Positions 25,450 to 61,630 of a stretch of 64,000 nt of DNA are shown one piece after another. The notes beneath the pieces were generated by a model. The model ran no database searches. It was not told the DNA's origin and saw nothing but the letters and a program-made list of their open reading frames with translations. The position numbers were made by a program, and so were the translations under genes. Position 1 is the first letter of the stretch; each line of letters opens with the position of its first letter. Origin of the DNA: Megasphaera paucivorans (GTDB taxonomy: Bacteria; Bacillota; Negativicutes; Veillonellales; Megasphaeraceae); contig NZ_FNHQ01000001.1 in NCBI RefSeq assembly GCF_900103535.1, forward strand, positions 171,268 through 235,267, in the 5' to 3' direction.

Positions 25450-25537
25450 TGGCGGAAAGGATGGGATTTGAACCCATGGAGCAATTCGCTCTCTTGCTTT
25501 CAAAACAAGTACCTTAAACCAACTCGGTCACCTTTCC
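25450..25537 (-). tRNA. tRNA-Ser(UGA), CCA encoded
   Basis: On the minus strand the acceptor GGAAAGG (25531-25537) pairs with CCTTTCC (25454-25460), followed by G and an encoded CCA (25450-25452). The anticodon stem-loop is CTTGT-TTTGAAA-GCAAG with anticodon TGA. A long variable arm (AGAGCGAATTGCTC) and GGGTTCAAATCCC T-arm identify serine. It lies inside the late operon between the Tad2-like gene and portal, so it is a phage-carried tRNA rather than the integration site. Confidence 0.92.
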
Positions 25538-39719: not shown

Positions 39720-40148
39720 TTATGCCCGACGCATATTTTTAAGCACGTATGGATCAAGCGTATAGGCAATGCCATCCGTTGGCACAATTTCTATCCCAAT
39801 ATCTACATGAGGATTCTGCTTGTCTATCCCTGCTATCCGGCTGTCACCAAAACCAACAACCAGTCTGTCATTTGCAAGGATCGCCGCTTTTTCCAATATG
39901 TCACACGTTGCCTGTAGCAATCCTATCAAGTCCGGCCATGACTTTCGATTTGGCATATAATACAACGCTGTCATAATGACAGGGCAGTCAATTGTATTTT
40001 CTTTATGCCTGACTTTTAATTGCCATAAAGCCGATTCTTCATATGCTGCATACTGCTTACTTTGCATCAAACTATTTTTTGTCCGCCTCATACTGTTCTT
40101 TTTAGTTATCGGACGACCTGTAATTGTAAATGTATACGGTTGATTCAC
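39720..40148 (-). CDS. rusA: RusA-like Holliday junction resolvase
   Basis: 142 residues. RusA features: TFTITGRPITKKNSMRR at the N-terminus, RKSWPDLIGLLQATCDILEK with the catalytic acidic residues (the usual KPDxDN region), and DDR-like NDRLVVGFGDSR. It resolves branched DNA made by the annealing protein during replication or before packaging. A frameshifted, truncated copy lies at 61056-61378. Confidence 0.85.
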   Translation of the reverse strand: MNQPYTFTITGRPITKKNSMRRTKNSLMQSKQYAAYEESALWQLKVRHKENTIDCPVIMTALYYMPNRKSWPDLIGLLQATCDILEKAAILANDRLVVGFGDSRIAGIDKQNPHVDIGIEIVPTDGIAYTLDPYVLKNMRRA

Positions 40149-40227
40149 TTTCTAATTACTCCTTTAACTGTTATTTATATATACAAAAATTTACTAACTA
40201 TCTACTTTTCTTTTAAATATTTTGTAC

Positions 40228-40370
40228 TATAATGGAGCCAAGCAGAGTTCCATTCATGCAAAAACTTCCAAATTATGACAAATCAAAAGTTCCACACCTG
40301 CTAATCTTCCAATGAAACTCTGCTGTAAGACAAGATATGTGAAGACAAACCACGTATCTTGTCTTTTATT
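40228..40370 (+). ncRNA. Candidate small RNA, copy 1 (about 130 nt)
   Basis: Antisense-oriented to the early operon, in the 247-bp gap between rusA and the next gene. A -10 box TATAAT is at 40228-40233. The putative transcript begins near 40240 with AGCAGAGTT, which pairs with AACTCTGCT (40316-40324), closing an arm of about 85 nt; a further CATT/AATG extends it. It ends at a 15-bp intrinsic terminator (AAGACAAGATATGTG... CACGTATCTTGTCTT, then TTATTT). No ORF or ribosome site is present. A second copy at 61483-61630 keeps -10 box, closing stem and terminator. Confidence 0.65.
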
Positions 40371-40395
40371 TATGTTGATGATGTATTCATCCGTT

Positions 40396-40638
40396 CTATT
40401 TAACCCCATTATTTTCACCATCCATTGGCATAGTCCATGTTCTTTTCCCCTCTGCAATAGCCTGATATATAGCATCCCGTACTTTTTCTGGATCTTTGTA
40501 TTTTCCAAGCATATCAAACAGGTAATCATGTTCTAATGAATCATATCCGCAATAAGAAAATATCTCATTATTATGAATTTCAACCGCTATGCTCTTATCC
40601 AGATTTACAATGTTTCCATCTTGTGTTAAAATCCACAT
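40396..40638 (-). CDS. Small early phage protein
   Basis: 80 residues (MWILTQDGNIVNLDKSIAVE...). It has a regular fold-like composition with FDMLGKYKDPEKVRDAIYQA helix, as seen in short phage early proteins of unknown function. Its start overlaps the end of the Lar-like gene by 44 bp. It is absent from the second prophage, where a deletion removed this segment. Confidence 0.6.
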   Translation of the reverse strand: MWILTQDGNIVNLDKSIAVEIHNNEIFSYCGYDSLEHDYLFDMLGKYKDPEKVRDAIYQAIAEGKRTWTMPMDGENNGVK

Positions 40639-52700: not shown

Positions 52701-55700
52701 TTATATTTTTTCTTTCTGTAAAGAAGACATTAATAAGTTTGTTTTTGTGTGTTTTCCTAAAAAAAATTTGTCTATTATTTGTTGACGTTTAGTATATGAC
52801 AATTGTGGATTACACATCAAATGTTTTCGTGCGATAAGTCCCACTATATAATAAGCTTTAACATCAAAATTTTTGATTACCTTTTCCGCCTCTTTTATAA
52901 ATTTTTCAGTATCTCCTAAATTTTCAACTATCATTAATCTTTCTATATTTTTATTCAGTTCTTTATATTCTTTTGTTAACAAAAGTTCAATTGTTCTTTG
53001 ACTTGTACAAAGTTCAGAAAAATGATCATATGTATTCAATATCATTGAGAGTCCAAATTGAGAAAACATTTCACGTATATCTTCTTCATTATATAAAACA
53101 CCTTCTTTTTTCTCAATCTTTTTTTTCTTAATAATTTTTAATAATTTCTCACATATTATATCAATTTGTTCATCAATAGGTTCTAACATAGCAAATACAA
53201 TTTTATGTGGATATGAATAAATCAATTCAACTAAATGTTTTTTTTGCTCAAGTAGGATGCTACTATTAAAAGCAGGTAAAGCTTTACATATCATTTCCGT
53301 ATATTTAATAGCTCTAATAAGTCTGTAGGGATATTCATCAATATCTTTTTCATTATATTCAAATAATCCTTTTGCCTCAATAGTACAATCCTGATATTTT
53401 CTTTCTTCAGCAATCTCTTGGTTTTGTTTCATATTGTCATGATCTTTTGGCGTTGGAGTTGTTATTCGATCAAACTTACGCTGTTTTAAAAATGATATAT
53501 TGCTTTCATTTAAATTAAATTCCTTCCATGGATAAAGAAGTTCGCCAGCATATTGAGCAATTAACATTACAATTTTTGTATTACCTGACAAATACGAAAT
53601 AAATAAAATAATATCTGAATTAATACCAAAGCAAATATTTTTAAGCGCATATTGTATCAATAAATTACCTGTAGACTTATCGTCTTGTAAAACTCTTAAA
53701 AGATGCTTAGCTATAAAATATGCTAAATAATTTTTATTTACAAAATAAATTGAACAATCCTCCGTGTTTTTAAACAATTTTGCTTGTTCACCAATTTTTA
53801 ATATCTGTGCTAAATATACATTCATGCCATAGAGTGCATTATATTTGTCAACAATATCTCGTACTTCCTCTTGCTTTAAAATGTCTTTGCGGTGTTCATA
53901 CATATATCCTGCTATTTTTTCAAACACGATAAAATCCTGATTAATATCAGCATCTTTAGATACTCTCATAATAGAAGTATGTAATTCATATTCAAATATT
54001 TGACTAAAAATTGCCTCCCCTTTTGTATAGTCACAATAATGTTCTTTAGTAAAGTAATCTGTATATCTAATAATAAATCCAGGATTTAATGAAAACAAAT
54101 TACTATTATTATAAACCAATCTATCAATTAGCTTATTTACCCCGTCTGCATCTTCACTAGTATATGTACTATTAAGTAAACATATTTTTTTCACAAGTTG
54201 ACTACGTTTTTCTGCAAAAAAAGGTTTTATTCTTAATTCTTCAAAATAATCAGCTTTAACAATTTCGTTTTCAACTAATTCTACAATATTTTTTCGTTCT
54301 TCATTTGCACTAAAAATAATAAAATCAAAATTAACTTCAATTACTTTTTGCAATTGTTTTTTATTTTCTTCTTTTAATTGTTCCCATCCATCAACAATTA
54401 AAACTTTTTTATTTTTTTCTGTTTGTTGATATTTTTCAAATAAAATAGAGTTATCACCATATTGATCCTCAAATAATCGTCTAATAAAATTTTTTGAATT
54501 AATTTTAGTTGCAGAATCAATAAAAAGAAACAATGGCAACTTATCCTTGGTCATAACCAAATACAGATACTTAAGAAGAGTTGATTTTCCAGAATTAGAT
54601 TCTCCTAAAATTAATATTTTCTTTTTCTGATCAATATATTCAAGTAACGCTTCACCCGTTTTTATTTCTTCATATTTACCAAATTCATTTTTATGTTCGC
54701 TAATTAACTTAGGAAAAACAAAATATTGCGTAAAATCTTTTGAATAGTAATAAATATCTTCCTTCATTGTCTTAACATAACTTTGCAATGGATTTAATTT
54801 TCTAGTTTTACTTAGAAGATTTTTATTTTCTATTACCAGTTCATGTATAAATATTTTTTCTCTATAATTCCAATTAAATATATAGCCACAAAAAGTATTA
54901 TCATCTGTATTAATGATAATACTATTAAATGAATCAGAAAAATTTAATTCAGAAAAATTCATTGCTCCTGCACACGATATCCAAGTCTCAAAACTTTCCT
55001 TATTTGAAATAGCTTTTGTATCGGCATAATGGTCATGACCTAATAATAGTATTTCCGAATTACTCAGAATTGAATGTTCTAAATTGGATTTATATCTAGG
55101 ATTAAACCATTCCCATCCATGATGCATTATTGTTATACATAAATTTGCCTCATCATCCTTATCTAAAACGTTCATTTTATCTTGAGGAAAATAATGTAAT
55201 TCCTTATCATCAGGATTAAGTGTAGAAAACAAAGCCGTATTAATCAAATTAAATTGTATACAATAATCCTTATATCTACAAAAGCGTTTATCAATAATCT
55301 TATCATTAGGTTTTTTAAAATTCGCATGAGAATAAGTATAAAAATTATCAAGTAATTTTATTTCATTTTCAACAATTGATTCTATACAATTTTTATCATA
55401 ATAACCCTGTATAATAATATTATCTCTTACTTCTTTCGTTAAAGTTAAATCGTGATTTCCAGGTACAATTAACATATCAATAAATTTTTGATTATTTTTT
55501 TTTTTTATTCCCGCAATTATTTTTCCTATCACATATCGAGATTTCTTATATTCAGTAATTTCACCTGAATATGCTAAATCTCCAGAAAAAGCAATAATAT
55601 ATTTATCGATATGACTCAATACATTTAGAGAATTTAAAAATTTTTCTATCTTTTCATTTATAATTTGATCTTTATCATTAACATGAAAATCACTAATATG

Positions 55701-55718
55701 AACAATCGCCAATTTCAT
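52701..55718 (-). CDS. Metallophosphoesterase-STAND NTPase, probable anti-phage defence protein
   Basis: 1,005 residues from ATG 55718 (AGGGGAG upstream). N-terminal calcineurin-like phosphoesterase (1 to about 290): ISDFHVN, FSGDLAYSGE, VPGNHDLT, IMHHGWEW, LLGHDHYAD, all five metal motifs. Then a STAND/NACHT-type NTPase: Walker A LILGESNSGKSTLLKYL (about 376-392), Walker B VLIVDGWEQL, and a long helical C-terminal region (600-1005) for sensing. Such effector-NTPase-sensor proteins act as bacterial NLR-like immune proteins. Very AT-rich, single-gene unit: typical horizontally moved cargo. The effector target is unknown. Confidence 0.8.
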   Translation of the reverse strand: MKLAIVHISDFHVNDKDQIINEKIEKFLNSLNVLSHIDKYIIAFSGDLAYSGEITEYKKSRYVIGKIIAGIKKKNNQKFIDMLIVPGNHDLTLTKEVRDNIIIQGYYDKNCIESIVENEIKLLDNFYTYSHANFKKPNDKIIDKRFCRYKDYCIQFNLINTALFSTLNPDDKELHYFPQDKMNVLDKDDEANLCITIMHHGWEWFNPRYKSNLEHSILSNSEILLLGHDHYADTKAISNKESFETWISCAGAMNFSELNFSDSFNSIIINTDDNTFCGYIFNWNYREKIFIHELVIENKNLLSKTRKLNPLQSYVKTMKEDIYYYSKDFTQYFVFPKLISEHKNEFGKYEEIKTGEALLEYIDQKKKILILGESNSGKSTLLKYLYLVMTKDKLPLFLFIDSATKINSKNFIRRLFEDQYGDNSILFEKYQQTEKNKKVLIVDGWEQLKEENKKQLQKVIEVNFDFIIFSANEERKNIVELVENEIVKADYFEELRIKPFFAEKRSQLVKKICLLNSTYTSEDADGVNKLIDRLVYNNSNLFSLNPGFIIRYTDYFTKEHYCDYTKGEAIFSQIFEYELHTSIMRVSKDADINQDFIVFEKIAGYMYEHRKDILKQEEVRDIVDKYNALYGMNVYLAQILKIGEQAKLFKNTEDCSIYFVNKNYLAYFIAKHLLRVLQDDKSTGNLLIQYALKNICFGINSDIILFISYLSGNTKIVMLIAQYAGELLYPWKEFNLNESNISFLKQRKFDRITTPTPKDHDNMKQNQEIAEERKYQDCTIEAKGLFEYNEKDIDEYPYRLIRAIKYTEMICKALPAFNSSILLEQKKHLVELIYSYPHKIVFAMLEPIDEQIDIICEKLLKIIKKKKIEKKEGVLYNEEDIREMFSQFGLSMILNTYDHFSELCTSQRTIELLLTKEYKELNKNIERLMIVENLGDTEKFIKEAEKVIKNFDVKAYYIVGLIARKHLMCNPQLSYTKRQQIIDKFFLGKHTKTNLLMSSLQKEKI

Positions 55719-55736
55719 ATTCAAACTCCCCTTCAC

Positions 55737-59946: not shown

Positions 59947-60690
59947 ATGAATAACATACTAACCGAAATTAATGAGTTAGAAATCAAATTAAGAAGCCTA
60001 CGTCCTTTAAATAAATCTGAATTAAAACGGCTGCGTGATGAATTTATTATCGAAACAACGTACAATTCCAATGCCATTGAAGGTAATACACTAACACTAC
60101 GGGAAACCGCTTTAATTCTGCAAGAAGGCATAACAATTGCAGAAAAACCTTTGCGTGACCATCTTGATGTTATTGGTTTTAAAGATGCCTTCTACTATAT
60201 TATTGATTTAGCCTCCCATAATGAACCACTAACAGAACAAACCATTAAAGCAATTCATTCCCTTGTTCTAATGAATGATCGGGAAAATCGCGGAAAATAT
60301 AGAAATGTTCCAGTCCGTATTCTTGGTGCTCTTCATACCCCACCGCAACCTTATTTAGTACCACCAGCCATAGAACAACTTATACAGCATTATGAAGAAT
60401 GGAACCAAACAAAACATATTATTGAAGCAGTTGCTCTTTTTCATCTTGAATTTGAATCCATTCATCCTTTTATTGATGGGAATGGAAGAACTGGCAGATT
60501 GCTTTTAAATTTCGAACTTATCAAAAATGGTCTATTACCAGTCGATATAAAATTCACTGATCGCCGCGAATATTACAACTGTTTTAACGAATATCATACG
60601 CACAACAATAATCCCCAAACATTAATTTCTTTGATTGCAAAATACGAAAAGGAAGAATTAGAACGCTATATTCAAATTATAGAAAAATAA
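59947..60690 (+). CDS. fic: Fic-family protein, class II
   Basis: 247 residues, AAGGAAGG upstream. Active site HPFIDGNGRTGRLLL (about 178-192). The inhibitory helix motif TTYNSNAIEGNTLTL sits N-terminal (about 37-51), so it is the self-inhibited class. Fic enzymes AMPylate proteins. It sits in the accessory slot before the integrase; as moron it may act in host control or phage exclusion. Confidence 0.9.
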   Translation: MNNILTEINELEIKLRSLRPLNKSELKRLRDEFIIETTYNSNAIEGNTLTLRETALILQEGITIAEKPLRDHLDVIGFKDAFYYIIDLASHNEPLTEQTIKAIHSLVLMNDRENRGKYRNVPVRILGALHTPPQPYLVPPAIEQLIQHYEEWNQTKHIIEAVALFHLEFESIHPFIDGNGRTGRLLLNFELIKNGLLPVDIKFTDRREYYNCFNEYHTHNNNPQTLISLIAKYEKEELERYIQIIEK

Positions 60691-60818: not shown

Positions 60819-61055
60819 ATGGCAGAAAAACACAAAAAGCGCGCTGATGGTCGATACCAAACAACGGCCACGATAGATGGCAAGCGCAAATTCTTTTTTG
60901 GAAAAACGTTCAAGGAAGCAACTGAAAATAAAGAAACATACCTTAAAACAGTACAAGCTGCCCCACATGTGGATTATAACATTACGCTCGGCCAATGGCT
61001 CGCCATATGGCTGAAAGGCGCAAAAAACACATTATCAGAAAGCAGTTTTGTCTCT
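60819..61055 (+). pseudogene. Integrase, N-terminal fragment
   Basis: About 79 residues of an arm-binding region (KKRADGRYQTTATIDGKRKF, ITLGQWLAIWLKGAKNTLSE) from a tyrosine integrase unlike the intact one. The frame then runs into antisense rusA sequence at about 61056. Catalytic domain is gone, so the element cannot excise itself. Confidence 0.8.
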
Positions 61056-61378
61056 TATCTACATGAGGATTCTGCTCGTCTATCCCTGCTATCCGGCTGT
61101 CACCAAAACCAACAACAAGTCTGTCATTTGCAAGGATCTCCGCTTTTTCCAATATGTCACACGTTGCCTGTAGCAATCCTGTCAAGTCCGGCCACGACTT
61201 CCTATTTGGCATATAATACAACGCTGTCATAATTACAGGACAGTCAATTGTATTTTCTTTATGCCTGAATTTTAATTGCCATAAAACCGATTCTTCATAT
61301 TCTGCATACTGCCTACTTTGCATCAAACTATTTTTGTCCGCCTCATACTGTTTTTTTAGTTATCGGGCAGCCTTTAAT
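61056..61378 (-). pseudogene. rusA-like remnant
   Basis: Matches rusA of prophage 1 (39801-40140). It has lost one T in a T-run near its start (ACTATTTTTG versus six T), shifting the frame, and is cut at the C-terminal end by the integrase junction. RKSWPDLTGLLQATCDILEK is still readable. Confidence 0.8.
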
Positions 61379-61482
61379 TATAAATAAATACAGTTATTTT
61401 ACTTTATAATTACTTCCTTAACTGTTATTTTTATATACAAAAATTTACTAAATATATGCTTTTATTTTAAATATTTTGTATT

Positions 61483-61630
61483 ATAATAGAACCAAGCAGC
61501 GTTTCATTCATGCGAAAAACTTCCCAAATTGTTAACAAATTAAGGGGCCACACCCACTAATTGTCCGATGAAACTCTGCTTTCAGACAAGATATGTGAAA
61601 ACAAATCACGTATCTTGTCTTTTATTTATG
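61483..61630 (+). ncRNA. Candidate small RNA, copy 2
   Basis: TATAAT at 61483-61488, transcript from about 61495. AGCAGCGTTTCAT (61496-61508) pairs with ATGAAACTCTGCT (61568-61580) with one mismatch. Ends in the same 14-15 bp terminator (AGACAAGATATGTG/CACGTATCTTGTCT) plus TTTATT. Flanked here by pseudogenes, yet its structural parts are kept. Confidence 0.6.

Follow-up and report, generated by a model that had tools for sequence, protein, structure and literature searches.

A small RNA family with chromosomal and prophage-borne copies in Megasphaera, a candidate for trans-acting regulation

An RNA gene in a prophage and in a prophage remnant

The window analysed here, a stretch of 64,000 nucleotides from Megasphaera paucivorans, holds a prophage (prophage 1) and a prophage remnant, each with a copy of the same small RNA gene. 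In prophage 1 it lies between two genes of the minus strand:

39720-40148 (-): rusA (PF05866 and phrog_140), flanking the RNA gene of prophage 1
40184-40239 (+): promoter block of the prophage 1 copy, with an AT-rich stretch upstream; -10 box TATAAT at 40228-40233
40228-40372 (+): small RNA gene, prophage 1 copy; box, stem, loop and terminator read directly
40240-40254 (+): 5' arm of the closing stem, AAGCAGAGTTCCATT, from fold and covariation
40255-40310 (+): large open loop of about 56 nt, from fold and alignments
40258-40274 (+): conserved loop motif GCAAAAACTTCCAAATT, mostly unpaired, a candidate pairing seed
40311-40325 (+): 3' arm of the closing stem, from fold and covariation
40327-40372 (+): intrinsic terminator, 15-bp stem (40327-40341 with 40351-40365) and U-rich tail, from fold and covariation
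40396-40638 (-): small early gene on the other flank, to which no protein family was matched; deleted in the remnant (alignment gap)
61437-61493 (+): promoter block of the second copy, 87% identical to that of prophage 1; -10 box TATAAT at 61482-61487
61494-61628 (+): second RNA copy, in the remnant; stem 61494-61508 with 61567-61581, terminator 61584-61598 with 61606-61620

The original prediction had described a -10 box, a closed arm and a 15-bp terminator, and direct reading and folding together find all three in place. The transcript of prophage 1 probably starts near 40240, its closing stem comprises 14-15 bp, and TTATTTA follows directly after the terminator stem. The -35 element is weak, and a scan for the sigma70 consensus does not list this promoter. 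A terminator scan likewise does not list the terminator, because its 9-nt loop is larger than the scan allows. The predicted folds have z-scores of -5.2 (prophage 1) and -7.1 (second copy), and none of 200 shuffles is equally stable. Judged from the sequence, the prophage 1 unit appears to be an independent gene some 130 nt long, with its own promoter and terminator and with no same-strand gene downstream. A peptide-coding reading was rejected: open reading frames of up to 28 codons do occur, so that the unit is not devoid of them as first described, but the copies as a set have no start codon, frame or SD in common.

As had been noticed at the outset, the second copy persists among broken neighbours. 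The remnant retains only a truncated rusA and, on the other side of the RNA, has lost about 340 bp, comprising the adjacent gene and part of the one beyond it, yet all parts of the RNA are kept. It had also been suggested that one copy repairs a pair of the closing stem that the other lacks; each copy indeed has one unpaired position, at different places, but the two prophage copies alone contain no double compensatory change in this stem. Their least conserved region is the loop, with 22 of 36 positions identical outside the motif compared with 80-100% in flanks, stems and terminator. The loop (40255-40310 versus 61509-61566) diverges much faster than the stems, the terminator and the neighbouring genes, which could be due to relaxed constraint or to changed specificity.

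The surroundings hold several further genes. An integrase-like N-terminus in the remnant (60819-61232, plus strand), recognised by eye and not matched by Pfam, runs directly into the truncated rusA on the reverse strand; the junction may be a recombination scar that marks how the remnant was reduced. The remnant also encodes a Fic-domain protein (59947-60690, plus strand) that matches PADLOC PDC-S04 and SoFic. Between the two prophages, a protein of 1011 residues (52701-55736, minus strand) combines a calcineurin-like phosphoesterase domain with an nSTAND/NACHT-type NTPase, matches the PADLOC candidate PDC-S60 and is likely an anti-phage defence gene. The sole tRNA of the window, tRNA-Ser(TGA) at 25450-25537 (minus strand), adjoins a gene region that may be phage-related.

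Chromosomal homologues and a conserved fold

BLAST against the source assembly revealed a paralogue in intergenic chromosomal DNA of the same contig (host1, C55:250326-250466), with an orthologue in the one other species of the genus that was compared (G001 C25:454-594). A covariance model built from these two and the two prophage copies picked up a second, more distant paralogue, host2 (C55:242525-242693, same contig, intergenic, 7 kb past the window), and its orthologue in the second species (G001 C3:51073-51237), at E-values of 4e-8 and 7e-8. The remnant copy scores 130.5 bits with covariance model R2. The family thus totals six copies in which promoter, stem, loop and terminator always follow in the same order; by alignment of the sequences alone, each has its own promoter and terminator. 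An amidohydrolase gene lies upstream of host1 in both species, and the host2 orthologues share a common neighbourhood, including the next sRNA-like unit. No nearby same-strand gene lies downstream of the RNA at the host1 and host2 loci and no gene lies opposite it; the host copies therefore look like free-standing RNA genes, not riboswitches or attenuators.

The unit next to host2 (C55:242828-242948, about 140 bp downstream; orthologue G001 C3:51372-51494) has a TATAAT box, an 8-bp closing stem, a loop with an anti-SD-like CUCCU/CCUCC and a strong terminator. It is 96% identical between the two species, has fold z-scores of -6.1 and -6.2 and has no Rfam match. Its architecture resembles that of the family, but model R2 gives it only 20.7 bits and kinship is unproven.

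The six copies agree closely in their pairing. In their alignment, which is fitted to the covariance model, pairing is preserved in 96.1% of cells and both sides have changed in 11 of 30 pairs, a level of pairing and covariation that none of 500 shuffles reaches. A control with partners slid by 1-3 columns yields 37-47% paired cells and 0-2 double-changed pairs. A MAFFT alignment of four copies, not fitted to any model, gives similar values (95.0% paired, 8 of 30 pairs double-changed). Across the homologues, 4 to 7 pairs of the terminator have changed on both sides. Covariation in the closing stem comes from the chromosomal homologues; the host1 stem of the source genome is perfect and differs from the phage stems on both sides of several pairs. 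Loss of the stem in further homologues had been set beforehand as part of what would refute the original prediction, and the stem is kept in the chromosomal copies. This covariation, the conserved promoter block, the conserved terminator and the four further homologues support the claim of a genuine small RNA gene.

Conservation extends upstream of the RNA. Promoter blocks are 68-96% identical among the copies; the prophage 1 block shares 71-75% with host1 and 68% with host2, and beyond the block, on its upstream side, identity drops to 18-36%. The resemblance of the phage unit to host1 starts about 55 nt before the stem and stops at the terminator, so promoter and RNA behave as one cassette. 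Of the chromosomal RNAs, host1 appears to be the nearest to the phage copy.

Within the loop, conservation is concentrated in one motif. Prophage 1 and both host1 copies agree in all 17 consecutive columns of GCAAAAACUUCCAAAUU, compared with 16 of the remaining 40 loop columns (33 of 57 invariant overall); an invariant run of this length has p=1.3e-4 in column shuffles. The UUCC within the motif is largely unpaired in the predicted fold (0.87-0.97). In the remnant the motif is altered by an insertion (ACUUCCC), and it is largely absent from host2, where part of it is kept. An exposed UUCC is found in prophage 1 and the host1 copies, UCCC in the remnant only and neither in the host2 loops, and the copies need not all share targets.

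No Rfam 15 family exceeds its gathering cut-off in the window or at the host loci, and a permissive scan returns matches at chance level only. Identity with 6S RNA was rejected: RF00013 matches neither the window nor the host loci, and the genome has its own bona fide 6S RNA elsewhere (C58:34212-34392, 85.8 bits). Within the genus the search covered two species. A search of 61 genomes of the order with model R1 yields no additional credible homologue, nor does one of 380 genomes of the class with model R2 at E 0.001. Weak matches in the bacterial family and in the source genome itself (G010:C1, G000:C64, G007:C6, G000:C41 and G008:C129) were inspected and judged to be terminators or chance, and a 22-base match in G047 seems to belong to a coding gene. 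BLAST found nothing in E. coli genomes and plasmids, and only chance-level AT-rich matches in phages. In IMG/VR the unit occurs on one contig only, which represents this same prophage, and scans of viral contigs with promoter and stem patterns found no family member. It had been proposed to look for the unit beside rusA elsewhere; this association did not hold up, as phages with a related RusA or SSB lack the RNA, and a RusA search of genome contigs gave one distant MAG match only. A regulon defined by a shared promoter was also considered and dropped, the pattern being little enriched over its reversed control. Taken by its sequences, the family appears to be a new, structurally conserved small RNA family that is not specific to phages; it looks like a host regulatory RNA with a phage-borne copy.

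A candidate trans-acting RNA and its alternatives

We give an even chance to the reading that the RNA is a trans-acting, Hfq-independent antisense sRNA with a UUCC-type seed, the phage copy being an RNA cargo gene that resembles host1. In this mechanism the long stem would clamp the RNA ends and hold the loop of about 55 nt open, exposing UUCC-type stretches, mainly the conserved motif. Such a loop would pair in trans with G-rich stretches close to ribosome binding sites, thereby blocking translation or destabilising mRNAs without Hfq. The phage copy would act on some mRNA targets of host1 during lysogeny or induction, and such cargo would benefit the phage. We infer transcription, pairing and targets, as well as the phage benefit and the capture of the RNA from host to phage.

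There is precedent for such a mechanism. LhrC of Listeria is a multicopy sRNA with redundant UCCC motifs that represses without Hfq and acts on lapB, and C-rich motifs are described as typical of SD-blocking sRNAs in low-GC bacteria (PMC4132741). The CUUCC seen here is weaker than the classic UCCC motif; SD-blocking sRNAs of the UCCC type include LhrC, RsaE and FsrA. Hfq (PF17209) was not found in the source genome, the congener G001 or the complete relative G004, in a search that was positive in five control genomes with known Hfq; KhpA/KhpB-type KH proteins are encoded. When both genomes were searched for the motif's wobble complement, no conserved match at a ribosome site emerged: the matches are the RNA genes themselves and otherwise mostly coding sequence, and for the one that overlaps a ribosome site (G000 C34:17934) no orthologous match was seen. 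Duplex energies against gene starts of the phage and of the neighbouring host region contain nothing exceptional after multiple testing.

The original prediction had placed the RNA antisense to the early operon and named early phage genes or host mRNAs as possible targets. By position the antisense arrangement is correct: the RNA is read from the plus strand, amid a series of minus-strand genes that extends from about 46.8 to 37.7 kb, so any read-through mRNA would be fully complementary to it. Pairing with such an mRNA between the 40396-40638 gene and rusA could lower rusA and the downstream ATPase gene. As core function, however, this is unlikely, because the host copies have the same parts and no opposing gene; a fixed position opposite the regulated gene, as in phage cis-antisense RNAs of the OOP, sar or aQ type, is thus not shared by the family. 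In both stems compensatory changes preserve the fold of the RNA itself, for which antisense pairing has no need, and the remnant retains the unit despite its truncated rusA. Some cis-antisense effect of the phage RNA on the early operon is possible, but would not explain the host copies. With the family residing in ordinary intergenic chromosome of two species, regulation of early phage genes as core function is unsupported, and of the two kinds of target host mRNAs fit better.

Other readings account for part of the data. The long closing stem and open middle recall 6S RNA, and the loop is free to vary between copies outside one motif, as might be expected if a protein or polymerase were bound by the clamped loop and titrated as in 6S/CsrB-type RNAs. 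We consider this unlikely, given the separate 6S gene, the lack of a match to RF00013 or any Rfam model and the absence of repeated GGA motifs. Less probable again is that the phage RNA, with the same seed and fold, competes with host1 for mRNAs or a chaperone and so shifts the host regulon. The identical 17-nt motif in prophage 1 and host1 would suit such a competitor, and phage RNAs that interfere with host sRNAs are known (AgvB versus GcvB, AsxR versus FnrS; PMC12197685). These, however, pair with their sRNA or mimic its target, while the prophage RNA has the same sense as host1, and nothing indicates that it is unable to act directly on the target. Antisense control of rusA in cis ranks below this competitor, and the least probable reading is a passive promoter-terminator unit, moved into the phage and kept only to insulate against read-through. 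Fast loop divergence between the prophage copies would agree with a mere passenger, but a terminator has no need of compensatory changes in a closing stem, and both this stem and the 17-nt motif have been conserved in two species and in the phage.

Returning to the trans-acting sRNA, the two chromosomal loci are common to two species and the phage copies come from one, which favours capture from the host over the opposite direction, although the tree is unrooted and the second genome is only 87% complete. Somewhat more tentatively, at a little under even chances, a temperate phage would here have a functional version of a host regulatory RNA as an sRNA-only cargo cassette with the 17-nt pairing seed, by which the prophage would feed into or override the host sRNA's regulon in a bacterium without Hfq. 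If true, this would be a clear example of phage adoption of a host regulatory RNA, with the seed of the chromosomal sRNA retained and the rest of the loop drifting. As small RNAs of Negativicutes are little described (few papers were found) and these genomes have no detectable Hfq, an sRNA family with covariation support offers a good way into the study of regulation without Hfq.

Relation to known small RNAs

A close known parallel is offered by LhrC1-5 and relatives of Listeria monocytogenes, likewise a multicopy sRNA of Firmicutes with free-standing genes and unpaired C/U-rich stretches, which are seeds in LhrC and candidate seeds here (PMC4132741). LhrC differs in sequence and fold, its three redundant UCCC motifs being spread over two loops and a linker (PMC4132741), whereas the prophage RNA has one closing stem and one large loop with a UUCC motif. 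6S RNA (RF00013) shares the long closing stem and open middle, but the prophage RNA is shorter and does not match its model.

Among phage-related RNAs, AgvB and AsxR of enterohaemorrhagic E. coli are prophage-encoded sRNAs that act on the host sRNA network (PMC12197685). They counter a host sRNA, whereas the RNA described here is a homologue of a host RNA, sequence kinship having been compared through Rfam only. The c4 RNA of P1/P7 and sar of P22 are likewise small structured phage RNAs (PMC12197685). These target ant mRNA; the prophage RNA has no recognised ant gene beside it and, in contrast, has homologues in the chromosome.
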